DNA from: Candidatus Peregrinibacteria bacterium GW2011_GWF2_39_17
Lineage (GTDB): Bacteria > Patescibacteriota > Gracilibacteria > UBA1369 > UBA12473
Assembly (NCBI GenBank): GCA_000993615.1
Contig: LBWM01000012.1
Coordinates: 1-42,049 of the forward strand
DNA length: 42,049 nt
Direction: 5' to 3'
Shown: positions 3,290-42,049 of the stretch, piece by piece
How the letters are laid out: every line of letters starts with the position of its first letter
Position numbering within the stretch: the first letter of the stretch is position 1
Program-made: the position numbers and the translations under genes
Notes under the pieces: model-generated
The model's database searches: none
Told to the model about the DNA's origin: nothing
Seen by the model: the letters and a program-made list of their open reading frames with translations, nothing else

Positions 3290-4294
<1,005 letters not shown>

Positions 4295-5533: not shown

Positions 5534-6166
5534 ATGTCCCTATTTTCGCAAGATAATTCCGCATCCAGTCAACAAAATGCCGCTCAAACTGATAATAGCA
5601 CTAGCCCTGCCGGCAACCAACAAGATGACTCTCACCCCAACAACACTCAAGGCCGCGTAAATCCACAAACTGAACCCTCACTGGAAGAACTAAAAATTGC
5701 CCTGACCACCGCTCAAAAAGATCTCGAAAACATGACAACCATTGCCCAAAGGACAATGGCAGATCTTCAAAATTTCAAACGCCATACTGACGAAGATCGC
5801 AACAATCTAACCCTTTTTGCCAATTTTCATTTCCTACAAGCCATATTTCCGGTTATTGATAATTTCCAACGTGCTTTTCAACACATTCCGGAAAATCTAA
5901 TTAACGAAGAATGGATCAAAGGAATTTTTGCCATGGAAAAACAGTTTATATCCACTCTAACCAATTTGGGACTTCAGGAAATCCCCTGCGAACCAGGTAG
6001 TAAATTTGACCCCAATTTACACGAAGCAATTAGCCAATGCCCAGGCGAAAAAGATCTGATTCTACAGTGCTTTGAAAAAGGCTATTTATTTAAAAATCAA
6101 GTCATTCGTCCTTCAAAAATAATGGTCGGAAGCGGGGAAGCGCCACCTCCACCAATGGCTAAATAA
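5534..6166 (+). CDS. grpE: Nucleotide exchange factor GrpE
   Basis: A 210-residue GrpE, which releases ADP from DnaK. The first 45 or so residues are Gln/Asn/Ser-rich and probably disordered. The long coiled-coil helix follows (about 48-105, including MADLQNFKRHTDEDR). The C-terminal beta domain contains LGLQEIPCEPGSKFDPNLHEA and the family ending NQVIRPSKIMVG. It forms an operon with hrcA. dnaK, which usually follows grpE directly, is about 4.7 kb downstream beyond the restriction island, and no dnaJ is in the window. Confidence 0.95.
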   Translation: MSLFSQDNSASSQQNAAQTDNSTSPAGNQQDDSHPNNTQGRVNPQTEPSLEELKIALTTAQKDLENMTTIAQRTMADLQNFKRHTDEDRNNLTLFANFHFLQAIFPVIDNFQRAFQHIPENLINEEWIKGIFAMEKQFISTLTNLGLQEIPCEPGSKFDPNLHEAISQCPGEKDLILQCFEKGYLFKNQVIRPSKIMVGSGEAPPPPMAK

Positions 6167-6228
6167 ACCCAAGAACTACACACCAACGCTGTTGCGGAAA
6201 AACCGCCTAAGCAAACGAGCAATTTGGG

Positions 6229-6486
6229 TTATGTCATGCAAGAGTCGAACCTGTTGTATCTTTCCTTTTTTGCTCTGTTTTTGTGAATTTGTTGATTCTT
6301 AGCTTCTGTTACTACTCTTGTATTTTTTGGAGTAGTTTTCCCGCCTTCTACTACTGGTTTTACATGGTATAATTTTTCCTTTTGACAATTTACCATGTCG
6401 TATCCTTTTTGCTTAAAAACTTTCTCAGCTTTTTTGGAATCACGCTCTTACTTTATTGCTGTTTTCGAAACTGTACTTTTTTTCAT
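6229..6486 (-). pseudogene. Small basic gene remnant with in-frame stop
   Basis: Reading left from ATG at 6484-6486, the frame gives about 12 residues (MKKSTVSKTAIK), then TAA at 6448-6450. It then stays open for 72 codons to the TAA at 6229-6231. The second part is Lys-rich and protein-like, with GYDMVNCQKEKLYHVKPV and an ending rich in Lys, Arg and Asn. Between the stop and the first later Met there is no good start codon, which suggests one gene of about 85 residues broken by a nonsense change. It lies between grpE and the restriction operon. I do not recognise the family. The rest of the 337-base gap holds only a short GCGG/CCGC hairpin near 6194. Confidence 0.35.
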
Positions 6487-6503
6487 AATAAAGTTTGATT
6501 AAA

Positions 6504-7499
6504 TTATAAACTCGAGGAATAAGACAATGATTTGATGTAATTTTCCATATACTCAAAATCGGGGTTTCCGTTTTTTACTGGCAATTTTAATTTTAAATGA
6601 CTTATTCTTTCTTTTGTAGCACCTCTTCCGTAATTAAATTTCTTTTCGATTTCTAAATTTAGTAAGGTGTTTATAAATAAGGCTATATATTTATTCAATT
6701 TGCCATGTCTAATTATGTTTATCTTATTTCCATTGATAAAATTTAAAGGCTGAAAAAACGCCTTAAATCCTTCCGCTCCAACAGAAATACAATTTTCAGG
6801 ATTAATTTTTTCTTCAATAGAAATATTGTTTTCTACAAATAACTCAACTCCATTATTTGTTGCTGTTCTTGTAACATATGGTATGTTTTTATTGCTTTTG
6901 TCGGCAATTATTTCCTCAATTTCAAGACCATGAATAGGAAAACCCAAGGTAACTTTAAATAATTTTCCAACAATAAATTCTTCCCATTTATCAAATTCTA
7001 ATTTTATTTTTTTATCGACCAAGGGTTTTTGAAAAATGCTTTTTTCTAATTCTTTATGATAAGCGATGAGCTTCTTTTTTAATTCTTCGGGGATCTGAGA
7101 AGGAATTAAAATATTTTTAAGTGTCTTGTTTGCCTGTCTTCCGTAATTATATTTATATTTGTTCGCACTAATACATTTTGCATAAAAAAGCATTTCAATA
7201 ATGCTCATTTTTATTTTAGGTTCAAGTACTAAAACATGAAACCCTGTGTAAAATGGTAAAGGTTGATAAAAAGTAGATAAAACAGATCCCCCCCCTGCAA
7301 CAGACAAGGTATGACCTGGATTCGGTTCAACATCTAATTCGGTTTCAACATAAGCGGAAATACCATTATTTTTTTCAGTACGAGAAACAAAAGGAACAGA
7401 TTTTTTATCTGTACTTTTACACTGAACTAAATTTATTAGTTCTAAACTATTACCATACTTAATGGTAAATAAATCCGATACTTTTACTAAATTATTCAT
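6504..7499 (-). CDS. Restriction-modification specificity subunit, two-TRD HsdS/BcgIB-like
   Basis: A 331-residue DNA specificity subunit made of two similar halves. Half 1 (about 1-165) contains SVPFVSRTEKNNGISAYVET and YGRQANKTLKNILIPSQIP. Half 2 (about 170-331) contains NIPYVTRTATNNGVELFVEN and YGRGATKERISHLKLKLPV. Each half is a target recognition domain followed by a helical spacer, as in type I HsdS and in BcgI subunit B (about 340 residues). Two TRDs imply a split recognition sequence. It is the last gene of a leftward operon and overlaps the 73-aa gene by 8 bases. It would bind the nuclease-methylase encoded upstream. Confidence 0.88.
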   Translation of the reverse strand: MNNLVKVSDLFTIKYGNSLELINLVQCKSTDKKSVPFVSRTEKNNGISAYVETELDVEPNPGHTLSVAGGGSVLSTFYQPLPFYTGFHVLVLEPKIKMSIIEMLFYAKCISANKYKYNYGRQANKTLKNILIPSQIPEELKKKLIAYHKELEKSIFQKPLVDKKIKLEFDKWEEFIVGKLFKVTLGFPIHGLEIEEIIADKSNKNIPYVTRTATNNGVELFVENNISIEEKINPENCISVGAEGFKAFFQPLNFINGNKINIIRHGKLNKYIALFINTLLNLEIEKKFNYGRGATKERISHLKLKLPVKNGNPDFEYMENYIKSLSYSSSL

Positions 7500-7713
7500 G
7501 GGTTTTTTCCGTAATTTCTAAAATTCTATGATCTGTTTTTGGCAAACTTCCGCAATGCCAAGCTGCAACACCATTTTCATCTCTGACAAAATAAATATCC
7601 TTTTCGTCCATTGTAATTTCTAAAGTTTTTATCACAAAATCATTGATTCCCGGTCCATAATCATCTCTTAATTTTGCCAAATAAATTTTTCCTTCTTCTT
7701 GTTTAGTTATCAT
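7492..7713 (-). CDS. Unknown 73-aa acidic protein inside the restriction operon
   Basis: I do not recognise this 73-residue protein. It is soluble and acidic, with alternating beta-like and charged stretches (GKIYLAKLRDDYGPG, TMDEKDIYFVRDENG, VAAWHCGSLP). It overlaps the end of the nuclease-methylase gene by 11 bases and the start of the specificity gene by 8 bases. It is therefore translated from the same mRNA and probably coupled to both. That packing argues strongly for a real gene and for a role in the restriction system, such as assembly, inhibition or modulation of cutting; this is inference from position only. Confidence 0.7.
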   Translation of the reverse strand: MITKQEEGKIYLAKLRDDYGPGINDFVIKTLEITMDEKDIYFVRDENGVAAWHCGSLPKTDHRILEITEKTHE

Positions 7714-9562
7714 AATTTTCTTTGTTAAAAAGTTTGTTGCTATGTAAAAAAGTTACATAGTTTAAAATAGTGTCCTCAAAATTTTCATCTTTCAAGTTTG
7801 AATAATCCGTTTCCATGTAAGCTTCCGTCGCCCATTCCATGTCTGCAGTGATTATTTGATTAACACTAAATCCAGCTTCTTCTTTTCTATTTTCAAAATA
7901 TGTAAGCCATTTTTTCTTTATTCCACCAATTAGATTTTTTTGATCATCTAGGATTTCCCACTTGTCATAAGCGTCAATTCTTCCTTTATTTTTTCTTTTC
8001 ACAAAACCGTCATCTTTGTAATAGCCGAAATATGTTTCTTTGTGATTTGGGTGTGGTCTGTGTGCTGTAAAAACCATAACACAAGAAACAACACCGACTT
8101 TTGAATTAAAAAACAATTCGTCTGGCATTGATAAAACCGCTTGTAATGTGTGTTTTTCAAGAAGTTTCTTTTTTAATTCCAAAACTTTACCACTTGTTGC
8201 TAAAGCACTTTGCATTGGCACAATAGCAACACAAGTTCCGCCGTCAACTAAACACTCTAAATTATTTAAAATAAATTCTAATTCGTCGGTATCAGTTTTT
8301 TTGTTTGATTTGTAAGGCGGATTCAAAAAACCAACTGTTGGCTTTTTTGCTTTCACTTCTTCAATAACTTCTTCATCAAAACAACTGCCGTTTATGATAT
8401 TTGTTTTTCCGTCTTGGTGGATATACATATTTGAAACCGCCAAAGCGAAAATATGTGATTGATATTCCGTTCCAATAAGTTGTTTTGATTTTATTTCTTT
8501 AATCTTTGTTTCATCACCTTTTGCGTCTGCGATCATTTTTTTCATTGCACTAATCAAAAATCCGCCTGTTCCAGTACAGTTATCGTAAGCAATAGAGTTT
8601 TTATTGACTTGTGCTAAGTCCGCAAAAAGCTCTGTGATATGTGGAGGTGTTAAAACAATTCCTAAACCTTTATCGCTGTTTGCGTATCTCAAAAATTCAA
8701 TATAAAGCTGACCTAAAACATCAAAGTATCTGTGAGTTTTAATAAAAACGTTTATGTTTTCGTCTATCTCGTCAATTATTTCCTTCAAAACATTTTCTTT
8801 TTTTGATAAAGAAGTGTCAGTTTTGATAAAACTAAATTGAGTGTTTAAATTTTCTAATTTTTTGCCTGTGATATTTGCTTTTTCTAGTTCATTTGAAACT
8901 GTTTGAATTAAAGAAGTTGCCAGGTCTTCCGGTCTACTCTGTGAAGCATAAGATCTTTTGAATGCTGGATTTTCTAAAGCAATCAAAATTGAACTAATCA
9001 ATAAACTTCTTTGACTCTCAAGGATTTTATAAGTATGTAATTTTTCGTTTAACTTTTTAGTAAAATCCAAAAGTGAGTTATAGTCTTGTCTAAATTTTTC
9101 CGGACTTTTTAAATATCCGTTAAGATAATCTTCAACGGGCAAGAATTTATCACCAAAAATCGGCGTTGCTTTTTTCTCATCCTTTAAATGCAAAAAGTGA
9201 GAAACTTTTAATGATTGTTTTGTTTCTCCGCTAACTGCGATTGCTAATACATCAAAGCCTTTGGATAGATAAGAAGCGTAAAGCAAAGCACCATCAACCG
9301 AAAAATCGGCATATTTATCGCGATCTTTGCTTTCATGTTTGGTTACATCTGCCTTACATTCAATAACAATCAATAAATCAGGATTAGTTTTGTAACTAAT
9401 AATAAATTCAGGATAACCTTTCCCTCCGCCTTTTTTTGAAGCGCTTTTTAATAACTTATCAATTTTTGGATTATCAGAGCGTTGTTCTTCAATATAAATA
9501 GAATCCGAAAAAATGGAAAAGTGATCTCTAGTGATTATTTCGGTTTTTCTTTCGTTCGCCAT
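7703..9562 (-). CDS. Nuclease-N6-adenine methyltransferase fusion, BcgI subunit A-like
   Basis: A 619-residue bifunctional restriction-modification protein. Residues about 45-75 carry a PD-(D/E)XK type nuclease core: PE at 51-52 and IECKAD with Glu68 and Lys70. A helical linker (about 150-290) leads to a gamma-type N6-adenine methylase with motif X-like GIVLTPPHI (301-309), SAM motif I DNCTGTGG (327-334) and catalytic motif IV NPPY (414-417). There is no helicase domain, which separates it from type I HsdR. Size, domain order and the partner specificity gene match BcgI (type IIB), which cuts on both sides of a bipartite site. It starts 6 bases after the regulator gene. Whether it cuts, and where, cannot be read from sequence. 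Confidence 0.87.
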   Translation of the reverse strand: MANERKTEIITRDHFSIFSDSIYIEEQRSDNPKIDKLLKSASKKGGGKGYPEFIISYKTNPDLLIVIECKADVTKHESKDRDKYADFSVDGALLYASYLSKGFDVLAIAVSGETKQSLKVSHFLHLKDEKKATPIFGDKFLPVEDYLNGYLKSPEKFRQDYNSLLDFTKKLNEKLHTYKILESQRSLLISSILIALENPAFKRSYASQSRPEDLATSLIQTVSNELEKANITGKKLENLNTQFSFIKTDTSLSKKENVLKEIIDEIDENINVFIKTHRYFDVLGQLYIEFLRYANSDKGLGIVLTPPHITELFADLAQVNKNSIAYDNCTGTGGFLISAMKKMIADAKGDETKIKEIKSKQLIGTEYQSHIFALAVSNMYIHQDGKTNIINGSCFDEEVIEEVKAKKPTVGFLNPPYKSNKKTDTDELEFILNNLECLVDGGTCVAIVPMQSALATSGKVLELKKKLLEKHTLQAVLSMPDELFFNSKVGVVSCVMVFTAHRPHPNHKETYFGYYKDDGFVKRKNKGRIDAYDKWEILDDQKNLIGGIKKKWLTYFENRKEEAGFSVNQIITADMEWATEAYMETDYSNLKDENFEDTILNYVTFLHSNKLFNKENYDN

Positions 9563-9568
9563 AATATT

Positions 9569-10201
9569 TTAATTAGAAATTTTTAAGACATCGATAATTT
9601 TTCCTGCAATATTCAGATTGTCGTTTTCGTGAAGCACGATAGGGAAATACTTATCGGTAGATTCTGAAATTAAAACAACCTGTTTATCATTTGGATTATA
9701 GCTAAATTTTTTGATATTTGCACATCCCTCTATTATGGAAACAACATAATCACCATTTTGCGGATTTTGATTTTTTGCATTTACAATAACAATATCTCCG
9801 TCTTCAATGTTTTTTTTGCCTTGTCCAACTTGTGCTTGATTCATGGAATTTCCTGAGGCTTGAATTAAGTAAAAATCCTTAACGTTCCCCTTTGGAAAAG
9901 CATTTTTTGATATTTTAATAAATCCCTCGATTCGATCTTCCGCAAAAGCTGTTGCGGGGCCACAATTTGCTATGCCATAAAAAGGAAAATTAAAAAAATC
10001 TTCACTAGTGAGATCTTTTTTATTTAAAACCAGCAAGCCGTTTTTCTCCTGGATCAACTGTTTGTTTTTTAAAATTTCAATGTGGTGTTTTACTGTTTGC
10101 GGATACTTTTCACCAATGCGACGACCGATTTCTCGGTACTTCAAAGGCACTGATCCTTGATCACGAAGTAATGCCAGAAGTTTATTTTGTATTGATGACA
10201 T
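9569..10201 (-). CDS. LexA/CI-like S24-family repressor of the restriction operon
   Basis: A 210-residue regulator with an N-terminal winged helix (about 1-50; REIGRRIGEKYPQTVKHHIEIL is the helix-turn-helix region) and a C-terminal S24 peptidase domain. Seen: a Cys80-Gly81 cleavage site in IANCGPATAFAED, the nucleophile Ser119 in ASGNSMNQAQ, and Lys164 in ANIKKF as the likely general base. LexA and UmuD use the same Ser/Lys pair to cleave themselves when RecA filaments form. It is the first gene of the leftward operon and is followed after 6 bases by the nuclease-methylase. It may be the cell's own LexA, but its position suggests control of restriction, with its operator probably the palindrome over the -10 box at 10222-10234. 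Confidence 0.85.
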   Translation of the reverse strand: MSSIQNKLLALLRDQGSVPLKYREIGRRIGEKYPQTVKHHIEILKNKQLIQEKNGLLVLNKKDLTSEDFFNFPFYGIANCGPATAFAEDRIEGFIKISKNAFPKGNVKDFYLIQASGNSMNQAQVGQGKKNIEDGDIVIVNAKNQNPQNGDYVVSIIEGCANIKKFSYNPNDKQVVLISESTDKYFPIVLHENDNLNIAGKIIDVLKISN

Positions 10202-10221
10202 AATAATTTTATTGAGGTGTT

Positions 10222-10253
10222 CTGATTGTATCAGGTTTGTCTTTTTTGGTCAA
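10222..10253 (-). promoter_or_regulatory. Promoter of the restriction operon with palindromic operator
   Basis: On the - strand TTGACC (10248-10253) and TACAAT (10225-10230) are 17 bases apart, 24 bases before the regulator ATG. The palindrome CTGAT-TGT-ATCAG (10222-10234 on the + strand) covers the -10 box, the expected place for an autorepressor operator. Confidence 0.55.
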
Positions 10254-10275
10254 ACTGTATTTAGTGTATTTTTTC

Positions 10276-10304
10276 TTGACAGGCAAAATGACGCTTATCA
10301 TAAT
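10276..10304 (+). promoter_or_regulatory. Predicted promoter for the GIY-YIG-like gene
   Basis: TTGACA (10276-10281) and CATAAT (10299-10304) are separated by 17 bases, 29 bases before the ATG at 10334. It diverges from the restriction operon promoter, so one regulator could control both. Confidence 0.5.
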
Positions 10305-10333
10305 AGGAGCTGTTATTTTTTAATTTTACTTTT

Positions 10334-10624
10334 ATGGATGTATTGAATCATCAGTTTCAGTGGCCATATGACTATAACTCTGGTTTCCAAAGGGATTTTG
10401 GATGTGTTTATATTTTAGTGAATACCAATGGGCAATTGGTCGATGTCGGGCAAACAGAAAGTGTCAACGATCGTTTGCCAAATCATGATCGGAAGCAATG
10501 CTGGATTAGAAATAGCTGTCCCGACAAGCAGTTGTATGTTCATTTAAATCAAAATGAACAGTACCGACTTCAGCTTGAAGGAGCAATTCGGAATAGTTAC
10601 GCTCCGTCTTGCGGAATTCGTTAA
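10334..10624 (+). CDS. Small GIY-YIG-fold nuclease-like protein
   Basis: A 96-residue protein with the core of a GIY-YIG domain. The first motif is CVYILVN (Tyr26). VDVGQT stands where YVGQT is usual, so the second Tyr is Asp37. Arg47 is in SVNDRLPNH, and Glu82 is in LQLEGAIRNSYAPS, the position of the metal-binding Glu. GIY-YIG enzymes cut DNA; the changed YIG motif makes activity uncertain. It is a single gene divergent from the restriction operon and probably part of the same island. It could be a nicking or repair partner, or unrelated cargo. Confidence 0.65.
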   Translation: MDVLNHQFQWPYDYNSGFQRDFGCVYILVNTNGQLVDVGQTESVNDRLPNHDRKQCWIRNSCPDKQLYVHLNQNEQYRLQLEGAIRNSYAPSCGIR

Positions 10625-10627
10625 ATA

Positions 10628-10710
10628 AAAGTGTTTTCGGAGCGACCGAAGGGGGCGGAGAAAACATCCGAACTGGCTGGCGATAACCAGACAGCCCCTC
10701 CCCTTTATAA
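10628..10710. other. G+C-rich multi-hairpin segment
   Basis: The stretch folds into nested stems. GTTTTC and GAAAAC enclose a TTCGG-AGCGA-CCGAA hairpin; CTG..TGG pairs with ACCA..CAG; a G-run near 10650 faces CCCCTCCCC near 10700. It is much richer in G+C than its neighbours. It begins 3 bases after the GIY-YIG stop, so it may be a terminator-like 3' structure, a small RNA or a dispersed palindromic repeat. 10711-10817 shows nothing else. Confidence 0.4.
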
Positions 10711-10817
10711 AAAAGAATCAATTCGCCCATTCCTTATTAAAAGTCCGAAAAGCGGAGTGGCAAAAAGGGAATAGGTAAAAATGTATTTCGCTTAACTCGG
10801 CTCTTACGGAAATTATC

Positions 10818-10858
10818 TTGACTCCCTAAAATTGGCACTCTATAATTGAGACTGCTAA
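10818..10858 (+). promoter_or_regulatory. dnaK promoter with CIRCE (HrcA) operator
   Basis: TTGACT (10818-10823) and TATAAT (10841-10846) are 17 bases apart, a near-consensus promoter. The CIRCE element TTGGCACTC (10832-10840), 9-base spacer, GACTGCTAA (10850-10858) differs from the consensus TTAGCACTC-N9-GAGTGCTAA at one base per half. The -10 box lies inside the spacer, so bound HrcA would block RNA polymerase. Confidence 0.9.
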
Positions 10859-10885
10859 TATTTACTCTTTTAAACCTCATAACTC

Positions 10886-12808
10886 ATGTCAAAAATTATT
10901 GGAATTGATCTTGGAACAACTAATTCTTGTGTAGCCGTTATGATGGGCGGGGATGCCGAAGTAATTCCCAATGCCGAGGGACAACGAACCACTCCATCCA
11001 TTGTAGCCTACAAAGACAAAGAAAGATTAGTCGGCATCCCCGCCAAACGACAAGCAGTCACCAATGCCGAAAACACTATTTTCTCCGCTAAACGTTTTAT
11101 TGGTCGTACCTATAAAGAAATCGAAGAAACTGCCAAACGCATGCCCTTCAAGGTTAGCAAAGGGTCCAAAGGAGAAGCGGAAATTACCCTTAATAATAAA
11201 ACACTCCGTCCAGCAGAAATTTCCGCCATGATTCTCCAAAAGCTTAAAGCTGATGCCGAAAAATACCTCGGTGAAAAGGTTACAGAAGCAGTAATTACGG
11301 TACCAGCCTACTTTAACGATTCTCAACGCCAAGCCACCAAAGACGCAGGTAAAATTGCCGGACTTGAAGTAAAACGTATCATTAATGAACCAACCGCCGC
11401 CGCTCTAGCCTATGGCATTGACAAAAAAGGTGGAGATAAAAAAATTGCGGTTTTTGATCTTGGAGGCGGGACATTCGATATTTCAATCCTTGAATTAGGT
11501 GATGGAGTCTTTGAAGTATTATCAACCAATGGTGACACCCAATTAGGCGGTGATGATTTTGACGAAATTATTTTAGAATGGCTTATTACCGAATTTAAAA
11601 AAGATCAAGGCATTGACCTCAAAAACGATAAAATGGCTTTACAACGCCTAAAAGAAGCTGCCGAAAAAGCAAAAATCGAACTTTCATCCACTCACGAAAC
11701 TGAAATCAACTTACCTTTTATTACCGCTGATGCCAGTGGCCCCAAACATTTTAATATAAAACTCAATCGCTCAAAATTAGAAGATTTAGTGATGGATCTC
11801 TTGAACCGCTGTGTTGACCCCTGCCGCAAAGCCATGGATGATGCTAAAACCTATGCCAGCGACCTTGACGAAGTAATTCTGGTTGGTGGTATGACCCGTA
11901 TGCCAGCAGTCCAGGAAAAAGTAAAAGAAATCTTTGGGAAAGAACCGCACCAAGGTATTAATCCGGATGAAGTCGTAGCCTTAGGAGCCGCTATTCAAGG
12001 TGGCGTTTTACAAGGTGATGTTAAAGACGTTCTTCTTTTGGATGTCACGCCTCTTACTTTGGGTATTGAAACTCTAGGCGGAGTAGCCACTCCTCTTATT
12101 GAGCGCAATACCACTATTCCTACTTCAAAATCACAAATATTTTCAACTGCGGCCGATACCCAAACCTCAGTCGAAGTACATATTGTACAAGGAGAAAGGC
12201 CATTGGCCGCTGACAACAAATCACTTGGTAAATTTATTCTTGATGGTATTCCTCCTTCCCCCCGTGGCGTCCCTCAAATTGAAGTAACTTTTGACATTGA
12301 TGCCAACGGTATCCTTAATGTTAAAGCCCTTGATAAAGCGACCAATAAATCGCAACACATCACCATTACCGGCTCAAGCGGCCTTTCCGAAACAGAAATC
12401 GAAACCATGAAAAAGGAAGCCGAACTGCACGCCGAAGAAGATAAGCGCAAAAAAGAACAAATTGAAATTAGGAATCATGCTGAGACCCTTGCCTCTCAAG
12501 CCGAACGCACCCTTAAAGATGCTGGCGAAAAAGTAGCGGATGATATTAAAAAACCAGTCGAAGAAAAAATTCAAGCCGTTAAGGATGTTCTTGCCAAAGA
12601 AGGTGCCACTACTGAAGAAATTAAAACTGCCAGCGATGCCCTAGGCGAAGAAATTCAAAAAATTGGAGCCGCCATGTACCAAAACACCAACCAATCCGAA
12701 CCGGAAAATGGAGTAAATGTAAAAGATATGAATGAAGACAAAGAAGGGAAAGACGACAATGTCGTGGATGCCGAGGTGGTGGATGAAGATAAGAAAAAAG
12801 AAGAATAA
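10886..12808 (+). CDS. dnaK: Chaperone protein DnaK (Hsp70)
   Basis: A 640-residue Hsp70, normal in length. The ATPase domain starts with [13 protein letters not shown], has [18 protein letters not shown] in the second phosphate-binding region and [11 protein letters not shown] near its end. The substrate-binding domain begins around residue 390 ([14 protein letters not shown]). The C-terminal tail is acidic and ends in DAEVVDED followed by Lys and Glu residues, as in other bacterial DnaK. It is transcribed alone from a CIRCE promoter. GrpE is encoded 4.7 kb upstream, across the restriction island. DnaJ is not in the window. Confidence 0.98.
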
Positions 12809-40997: not shown

Positions 40998-41219
40998 TAT
41001 AAACTTAAAATTAAATACCCACCCCCCTAAAAAAGTTCTACTGGGTGGTGCATTTATTACTTAAATTTATCCTTTTTTTGAGTGACCACCATTAATTTTC
41101 TTTTAATCCTGAATAGCTAATCTTGTAATTAACTTATTGAATTAAGAATGGTGCTAGTAGAGAATTAAAATTCTCAATAATGTGCCCATTAGATTTAGCT
41201 TTTATTAAATCAATTTTTT

Positions 41220-41693
41220 CTAAATAGTATTCAATTTTTTTCCATCTCTCTCTTCTGAAATAAGGTGAAAATTATTAATATTATTTTTATCTACCTCGGC
41301 AAAAACATTAGAGGGAAATATTTCTTTGTCATTGTTAACGGGGTCGCCTTTCCCTACTTGAATATATGTTACCGATTGAATAACTTTTTCGTTCTCAATG
41401 ATTAAATAAGTCCCTGTCGTTCCCTCCCACCAATGAGTGCCGTATAAATGCTCAAATGAAAAAAGTTTTTCATATCCAAGACCTATAAATACATAAAGTT
41501 TATCTCCTTCGATTTGTTTTTCGACGTATGATTTAGGAATATAAAAAAAAATTTTCTTGTCGCCTTTATATAAAATAAATCGATTAACATATGCAAAATT
41601 GACCCAATAAATCAAAAATGAACTTATAAAAACAATCACTATCAAAAAAAGTAATTTTCCCATAATTTGAATTTTTAAATTACAATTTTCCAT
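41220..41693 (-). CDS. Hypothetical single-pass membrane protein
   Basis: A 157-residue protein I do not recognise. One strong hydrophobic segment (about residues 13-33, LLFLIVIVFISSFLIYW) is followed by a beta-rich extracytoplasmic part with YIPKSYVEKQI, LYVFIGLGYEKLF and THWWEGTTGTYLIIENEKV. It starts at ATG 41693, overlapping the upstream gene by 14 bases; an ATG at 41663 (residue 11) would remove the overlap and is possible. It is paired with the HExxH gene. 40998-41219 between it and secY is A+T-rich with a CACCC/GGGTG inverted repeat and no gene. Confidence 0.6.
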   Translation of the reverse strand: MENCNLKIQIMGKLLFLIVIVFISSFLIYWVNFAYVNRFILYKGDKKIFFYIPKSYVEKQIEGDKLYVFIGLGYEKLFSFEHLYGTHWWEGTTGTYLIIENEKVIQSVTYIQVGKGDPVNNDKEIFPSNVFAEVDKNNINNFHLISEERDGKKLNTI

Positions 41694-42049
41694 ATAAAAT
41701 TATTTGAGACATATAGCCATAATACCCATGTAATGCCATGAGTGGATTTTTGATAGAGTCATTATATATACTTACAATTTCTTTATATTCACTTAAATCT
41801 GGATTAGAATTCCCAAACCAAGATGAAACATCATTCGCCCAATGTTCTATTTCATGGATTAAGGTTTTATCCACAATATCTCTCGTAAAGGTAGCATTAT
41901 AAATATATATATTATACCAAAGAGTTTGGTTGGGGTCTTCGAAATTGCAATTTTCTCCAGCGCTACCGGTGCCTGGCATGGGGATAAAACACTGAATCAT
42001 GTTTTGGCCACAAATCGAGGGCGTGGTTGACTGCCAATCTAACGGTTTT
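41680..42049 (-). CDS. Partial protein with HExxH metallopeptidase-like motif
   Basis: The frame from ATG 42000 stays open upstream through 42001-42049 to the window edge with no stop, so this is the C-terminal part of a larger gene and the true start lies outside. Visible are TLIHEIEHWANDVSSWFG, an HExxH zinc-ligand pattern, several Cys, and an aromatic-rich end (LHGYYGYMSQIILYGKL). HExxH after a helix start suggests a zincin-type peptidase fold, but the third ligand is not identifiable and no family can be named. It overlaps the membrane protein gene by 14 bases, so the two probably act together at the cell surface. Confidence 0.55.
   Translation of the reverse strand, partial: KPLDWQSTTPSICGQNMIQCFIPMPGTGSAGENCNFEDPNQTLWYNIYIYNATFTRDIVDKTLIHEIEHWANDVSSWFGNSNPDLSEYKEIVSIYNDSIKNPLMALHGYYGYMSQIILYGKL

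Follow-up and report, generated by a model that had tools for sequence, protein, structure and literature searches.

Evidence for lateral acquisition of a BcgI-like restriction-modification operon with its own predicted self-cleaving LexA-like repressor in a Patescibacteria genome

The window (the whole stretch of 42,049 nucleotides from Candidatus Peregrinibacteria bacterium GW2011_GWF2_39_17 that was analyzed) contains an island bracketed by grpE (5534-6166, stop at 6166) and dnaK (10886-12808, promoter at 10818). A compact minus-strand operon leads from a gene for an S24/LexA-like repressor through a fused restriction-modification (RM) gene and a gene for a 73-aa protein (p73) to a specificity (S) subunit gene. 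The last three genes are joined by overlaps of 8-11 bases. Open reading frames (ORFs), Pfam, and PADLOC located every gene where an earlier note, made from the bare DNA letters, had placed it (Table 1).

Table 1. Features of the island between grpE and dnaK
Feature	Position	Strand	Evidence or remark
Small ORF, 55 aa	6229-6396	-	3' of operon
Specificity subunit, two TRDs, 331 aa	6504-7499	-	Methylase_S 2e-14, Specificity_II 1e-28
73-aa orphan (p73)	7492-7713	-	At RM/S junction, overlaps both neighbours
BcgI-like fused nuclease/N6-adenine methylase (RM), 619 aa	7703-9562	-	PADLOC PDLC03608, N6_Mtase
S24/LexA-like repressor, 210 aa	9569-10201	-	Pfam Peptidase_S24 + LexA_DNA_bind, AlphaFold model
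Control region, two back-to-back sigma70-like promoters and candidate operator TGTCAA...TTGACC	10202-10333		
Mini GIY-YIG protein, 96 aa	10334-10624	+	Divergent from repressor; Pfam 2e-4
G+C-rich noncoding tail of mobile module	10625-10796	+	
Module common to window and L061, ~85% DNA identity	6479-10796		Except 7500-7727 (73-aa gene)
dnaK promoter with CIRCE-like operator	10818-10861	+	TTGACT-17-TATAAT; inverted repeat read from sequence

The four operon genes have a G+C content of 28-33%. The composition check proposed in the earlier note separated the island from its surroundings, with GC3 values of 0.19-0.27 for the operon genes and 0.34-0.53 for the neighbouring genes and, on a summed scale, a codon-usage distance of 10.2 between island and flanks compared with 3.9 between the flanks. 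As that note had also stated, neither a transposase nor a direct-repeat border was seen: no recombinase was found among the island ORFs, which places the island outside the transposon and integrase-island classes, and no direct repeats of at least 9 bases were found at its ends. The G+C-rich segment had been described as structured, but 10625-10800 folded no better than its shuffles (z -1.25), and an Rfam search gave no match. The segment is conserved in L061, the nearest related locus (see below), and was therefore counted into the mobile module. The 55-aa ORF had been called a broken gene, for which an upstream in-frame stop is the one sign; its product matched no family and had no relative in the collected loci (L061 and L113 included) or elsewhere in the genome. 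It is possibly the remainder of a longer gene. At 41001-42000 of the window, the G+C content drops to 29%, as low as in the island, and this may be another acquired stretch.

The insertion site was compared in 22 relatives of the same order for which both chaperone genes lay within the stretch read. The gap between grpE and dnaK was at most about 220 bp in 11 of them, and 0.4-1.4 kb of other, unrelated sequence separated the genes in the other 11. In the sole genome of the same family, a 275-aa gene lies between them. The expectation that the two genes are usually adjacent was thus half true; in this order their splitting is nothing unusual, and the location is not special. The dnaK gene of the window retains its own promoter and CIRCE-like operator, intact next to the island, and therefore need not depend on upstream genes. 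For this reason, insertions may be tolerated here.

The RM protein matched the PADLOC model PDLC03608 (REase_MTase_IIG) with an E value of 8e-168 and N6_Mtase with 2.6e-28. Its motifs P51-E52...E68-x-K70 and NPPY (414-417) are essentially invariant in 84-91 aligned relatives. A PD-(D/E)xK nuclease fused to an N6-adenine methylase, together with a separate two-TRD S subunit, is the arrangement of BcgI-like Type IIB/IIG systems, and restriction activity is predicted. By its sequence, the protein is a new member of the known and widespread BcgI-like Type IIG/IIB family. The earlier idea of an undescribed system therefore finds no support for the enzyme; the undescribed part may be the regulator, which had been named merely an S24 repressor.

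A scan of genome contigs yielded 80 loci (loci are numbered with an L throughout) at which relatives of RM, about 55-93% identical, are encoded; they come from Patescibacteria, Bacteroidetes, Proteobacteria, and others. The nearest locus, L061 from a marine Patescibacterium, matched the window with 85% DNA identity over 6479-7499 and 7728-10796 (85.5% in the latter part), and the match takes in the repressor gene, the GIY-YIG gene, and the G+C-rich tail. At the protein level, identity to L061 was 92% for RM and 93% for the S24 repressor but only 61% for DnaK. Judged from these values, the module was acquired laterally, noncoding DNA included, and the transfer was recent. The earlier proposal that a defence module came in by lateral transfer and brought its own control is thereby strongly borne out for the transfer, and its control part also fares well (see below).

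The partners of the enzyme vary between loci. RM genes 86-92% identical to that of the window come with a close S24 gene in L061 and L062 (93% and 82% identical), with a distant one in L065 (39%), and with no adjacent regulator in L063 and L220. In L064 (RM 89% identical), an HTH_3 plus IrrE/M78-like pair precedes RM, and a divergent GIY-YIG gene is present. Among more distant RM relatives, LexA-type S24 proteins occur at L080, L097, L099, L109, and L110, and XRE proteins at L067, L086, and others. L061 and L113 have RM, the N-terminal TRD, and the next gene in common, and their C-terminal TRD is swapped (91% versus 43% identity to the window). Regulator, TRD, and accessory genes are, from these comparisons, exchanged around a nearly constant enzyme.

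Several observations concern the ends of such modules. Downstream of the L113 operon, short stretches that match the two island ends (10709-10790 and 6192-6229) are found close to each other (3785-3862 and 3967-4005), at a place where L061 and L113 carry a gene for a 457-aa predicted coiled-coil protein that the window lacks. An integron cassette was considered, as attC-like elements were seen by eye (L113 3940-4060, window 6165-6229). This was dropped: an integrase is absent here, the rest of the genome contains no strong repeats, and the elements have no significant fold. In a genome of the same order, L219 (1-1324) holds a 96% identical RM fragment at the contig end, divergent from the gene of a tyrosine recombinase (274 aa) that resembles XerA/integron integrases. 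This recombinase scores below both the integron-integrase and the XerA cut-offs and was not retained as a sign of window mobility. A phage or plasmid origin was also rejected, with weak plasmid DNA matches, phage S24 relatives below 35% identity, and the element pattern absent from viral contigs.

The repressor matched Pfam Peptidase_S24 (1.6e-14) and LexA_DNA_bind (0.0019). It combines a winged HTH with an S24 domain and carries a Cys80-Gly81 cleavage site and a Ser119/Lys164 dyad, the hallmarks of self-cleaving S24 repressors (HTH, S24 domain, scissile [Ala/Cys]-Gly, Ser-Lys dyad). In an alignment of 35 proteins, the genome's own LexA included, 34 retain the Ser, the Lys, and [Cys/Ala]-Gly. 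The AlphaFold model (pLDDT 86) matched full-length LexA with an E value of 2.7e-11 and, at 2.5 A, the catalytic domain of LexA. Against the LexA equivalog TIGR00498, the protein scored 70.4 bits (cut-off 110.95), and it was filed as a LexA-like S24 repressor. The genome encodes RecA and, beside a DinB-like gene, a separate canonical-type LexA. Because of the score below the cut-off and this other LexA-type protein, the window repressor is, by sequence, a second, dedicated repressor and not the LexA of the cell. Its self-cleavage, stimulated by RecA, is predicted. The palindrome GGTGAGTATTTACTCACC (L148 2399-2420) lies upstream of this separate LexA/DinB locus and is a possible operator for the canonical LexA.

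The control region contains a minus-strand promoter (TTGACC-17-TACAAT, 10253-10225) and a plus-strand promoter (TTGACA-17-CATAAT, 10276-10304), both sigma70-like. Members of the repressor subfamily (E 1e-20 or better) turned up in 28 of the 380 Patescibacteria genomes sampled, and the recognition-helix region PQxVKHHL recurs across them. Of the 30 regions upstream of subfamily genes, 12 contain the half-site TGTCAA on the sense strand. Shuffles gave an expectation of 1.1, and among the 89 control regions 2 contained it (p 6e-7 against these controls). TGTCAA followed within 45 bases by an inverted TTGAC over the -35 occurred in 7 of 30 regions versus 0 of 89 controls; the window version is TGTCAAGAAAAAATACACTAAATACAGTTTGACC. 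Because TTGACA is also the -35 consensus, promoter signal may account for part of the TGTCAA/TTGACA enrichment. It explains the TGTCAA excess less readily, except at loci with a divergent gene; divergent promoters may contribute some of the enrichment. The motif is a candidate operator that is likely common to the subfamily, to which the repressors are predicted to bind.

We read 29 neighbourhoods of subfamily members, of which 21 had a same-strand gene following the repressor gene. Directly downstream were a Type I REase (L195), a IIG R-M gene (L199), a caspase-like gene (L189), C5 methylases (L188, L203, and L206; one with Vsr), CBASS cyclase/effector genes (L187, L207, and L208), and PemK toxins (L185, L197, and L201). 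At a threshold of 1e-10, and with a generic FtsK-like match (L212) left out, a PADLOC match was present in 10/21 tandem neighbourhoods and, on the same contigs, in 2/20 control genes (p 0.009); with PemK included, the numbers were 13/21 and 2/20 (p 0.0006). The comparison is imperfect, since up to two genes counted for each neighbourhood and one for each control. With the first gene alone, PADLOC matched in 8/21, and 11/21 were reached with PemK. The linkage suggests that the immune systems behind these repressors are switched on by DNA damage. At L209 the repressor gene precedes recA and probably encodes that cell's real LexA; the subfamily therefore mixes SOS and dedicated regulators. At L185, L197, and L201, the S24/LexA-like gene overlaps the following PemK/MazF-type toxin gene and no ordinary antitoxin was seen; the repressor may act there as a transcriptional antitoxin.

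We favour, with a probability of about 0.68, the reading that the island is a mobile BcgI-like Type IIB/IIG R-M operon, recently transferred and controlled in response to damage by its own self-cleaving LexA-like repressor. In the undamaged cell, the repressor would sit on the TGTCAA-type operator in the region of its own promoter and repress itself, holding the R-M operon low and probably the divergent GIY-YIG gene as well. Phage attack or damage would lead to accumulation of single-stranded DNA and to RecA filaments, upon which the Ser119/Lys164 dyad of the repressor would cleave its own Cys80-Gly81 bond. Transcription of RM and S, and perhaps of the GIY-YIG gene, would then rise. Since nuclease and methylase are one polypeptide, induction would raise both together, which would limit self-damage. 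Against this reading we count that the regulator is dispensable for the core: among the RM copies that are 86-92% identical, some lack an adjacent regulator (L063, L220) or have the HTH_3 and IrrE-like pair instead (L064).

The repressor could alternatively work as an establishment timer in the manner of C proteins, delaying or limiting the enzyme on entry into a new host and then settling at an autorepressed steady level, with self-cleavage as a relic and no damage response. The operon is clearly mobile, both promoters face one control region, and the XRE/HTH proteins of related cores (L067, L086, and others) are small and sit at the same place, like C proteins. However, a pure timer would not need the dyad and the scissile bond, which nearly all aligned proteins keep, and the HTH+IrrE pair of L064 is also a proteolytic switch type. 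We consider a timer unlikely. Less probable still is a passenger repressor (of phage or SOS-duplication origin, for instance) that controls other genes while R-M is expressed constitutively from the same promoter. S24 relatives do occur in phages, and RM cores without an adjacent S24 gene exist; yet two S24 types (82-93% identical in L061 and L062; 39-43% in L036, L065, and L078) precede closely related Patescibacteria RM genes on the same strand and within about 80 bp, an arrangement that argues against a passenger.

The small genes vary more. A second copy of p73 was found in L063 only, 74% identical and at the same RM/S junction. Apart from it, p73 had no relatives in the 380 Patescibacteria genomes or IMG/VR and was absent from L061. 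Its fold model (pLDDT 45) was unusable. The Pfam match of the GIY-YIG-like gene (2e-4) lay a little under the cut-off. Divergent relatives stand beside the regulator in L061 (73%), L064 (35%), and L184 (34%), and the gene is missing from L062, L065, L078, and most other loci. A new composite defence system with p73 and the GIY-YIG protein as working parts rather than accessories, as the strong conservation of p73 in L063 and the recurrent divergent GIY-YIG gene might suggest, is the least probable reading, since p73 is missing from nearly all copies, GIY-YIG from most, and L184 combines S24 and GIY-YIG without R-M. Among relatives of the repressor that lie away from RM genes, the one at L184 (7998-9248) is the closest (57%); it adjoins groEL/groES, again a chaperone locus. 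At L186, L190, L204, L196, and L198, other small genes are divergent from an S24 repressor gene, HNH at three loci and DUF3892 at two, in parallel to GIY-YIG in the window.

These results bear on the open question of how dangerous bacterial immune systems are kept silent until needed. A 2026 paper names CapW/BrxR, CapH+CapP, and CapK+CapS as damage-activated regulators of immune operons (PMC13373217); it contains none of the terms LexA, S24, or SOS. In the open-access literature, we found no LexA-like family described as a damage-activated immune regulator. There is an even chance, in our judgement, that the members of a radiated single-protein LexA-like family in Patescibacteria act as switches, triggered by damage, of many immune systems that are unrelated to each other (R-M, CBASS, toxins, caspase-like), with a TGTCAA-type operator in common, as a fourth independent solution beside those three. 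If so, the classical SOS switch would be tied to immunity in mostly uncultured bacteria with tiny genomes, and a search downstream of these repressors would be a simple guide to new defence genes. The restriction operon illustrates the trading of regulator, TRD, and accessory genes around its near-constant enzyme.

Like BcgI and BsaXI (Type IIB/IIG; PMC1892151, PMC11997821), the operon encodes nuclease and N6-adenine methylase in one polypeptide with a separate two-TRD S subunit, and PD-(D/E)xK-like and NPPY motifs are conserved in both. Unlike them, it has the extra 73-aa gene between RM and S and the S24 repressor gene in front; BcgI and BsaXI cut on both sides, and the likeness of the predicted enzyme to them is one of genes. 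No small XRE activator/repressor of the C-protein type was found upstream of R-M in the island. RptR of Type I R-M islands (PMC12255303) is likewise a small dedicated repressor genetically linked to R-M; unlike for the window repressor, its abstract mentions neither a protease domain nor a damage signal. With LexA/S24 SOS repressors, including the noncanonical LexA of Bacteroidetes (PMC8565304), the window repressor shares HTH and S24 domain, [Cys/Ala]-Gly, and the Ser-Lys dyad, and it has the winged HTH and, in the predicted model, the full-length fold of LexA. In contrast to LexA, it falls below the equivalog cut-off, is a second copy, and precedes immune instead of SOS repair genes. As with CapW/BrxR, CapH+CapP, and CapK+CapS (PMC13373217, PMC9122601), such repressor genes precede diverse immune operons, and release by DNA damage is proposed. 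The island has no M78 gene that could supply the separate IrrE/M78-type protease of a CapH+CapP pair. Whereas those regulators use WYL-ssDNA sensing or a separate protease or kinase, one self-cleaving protein would here be sensor, protease, and repressor.
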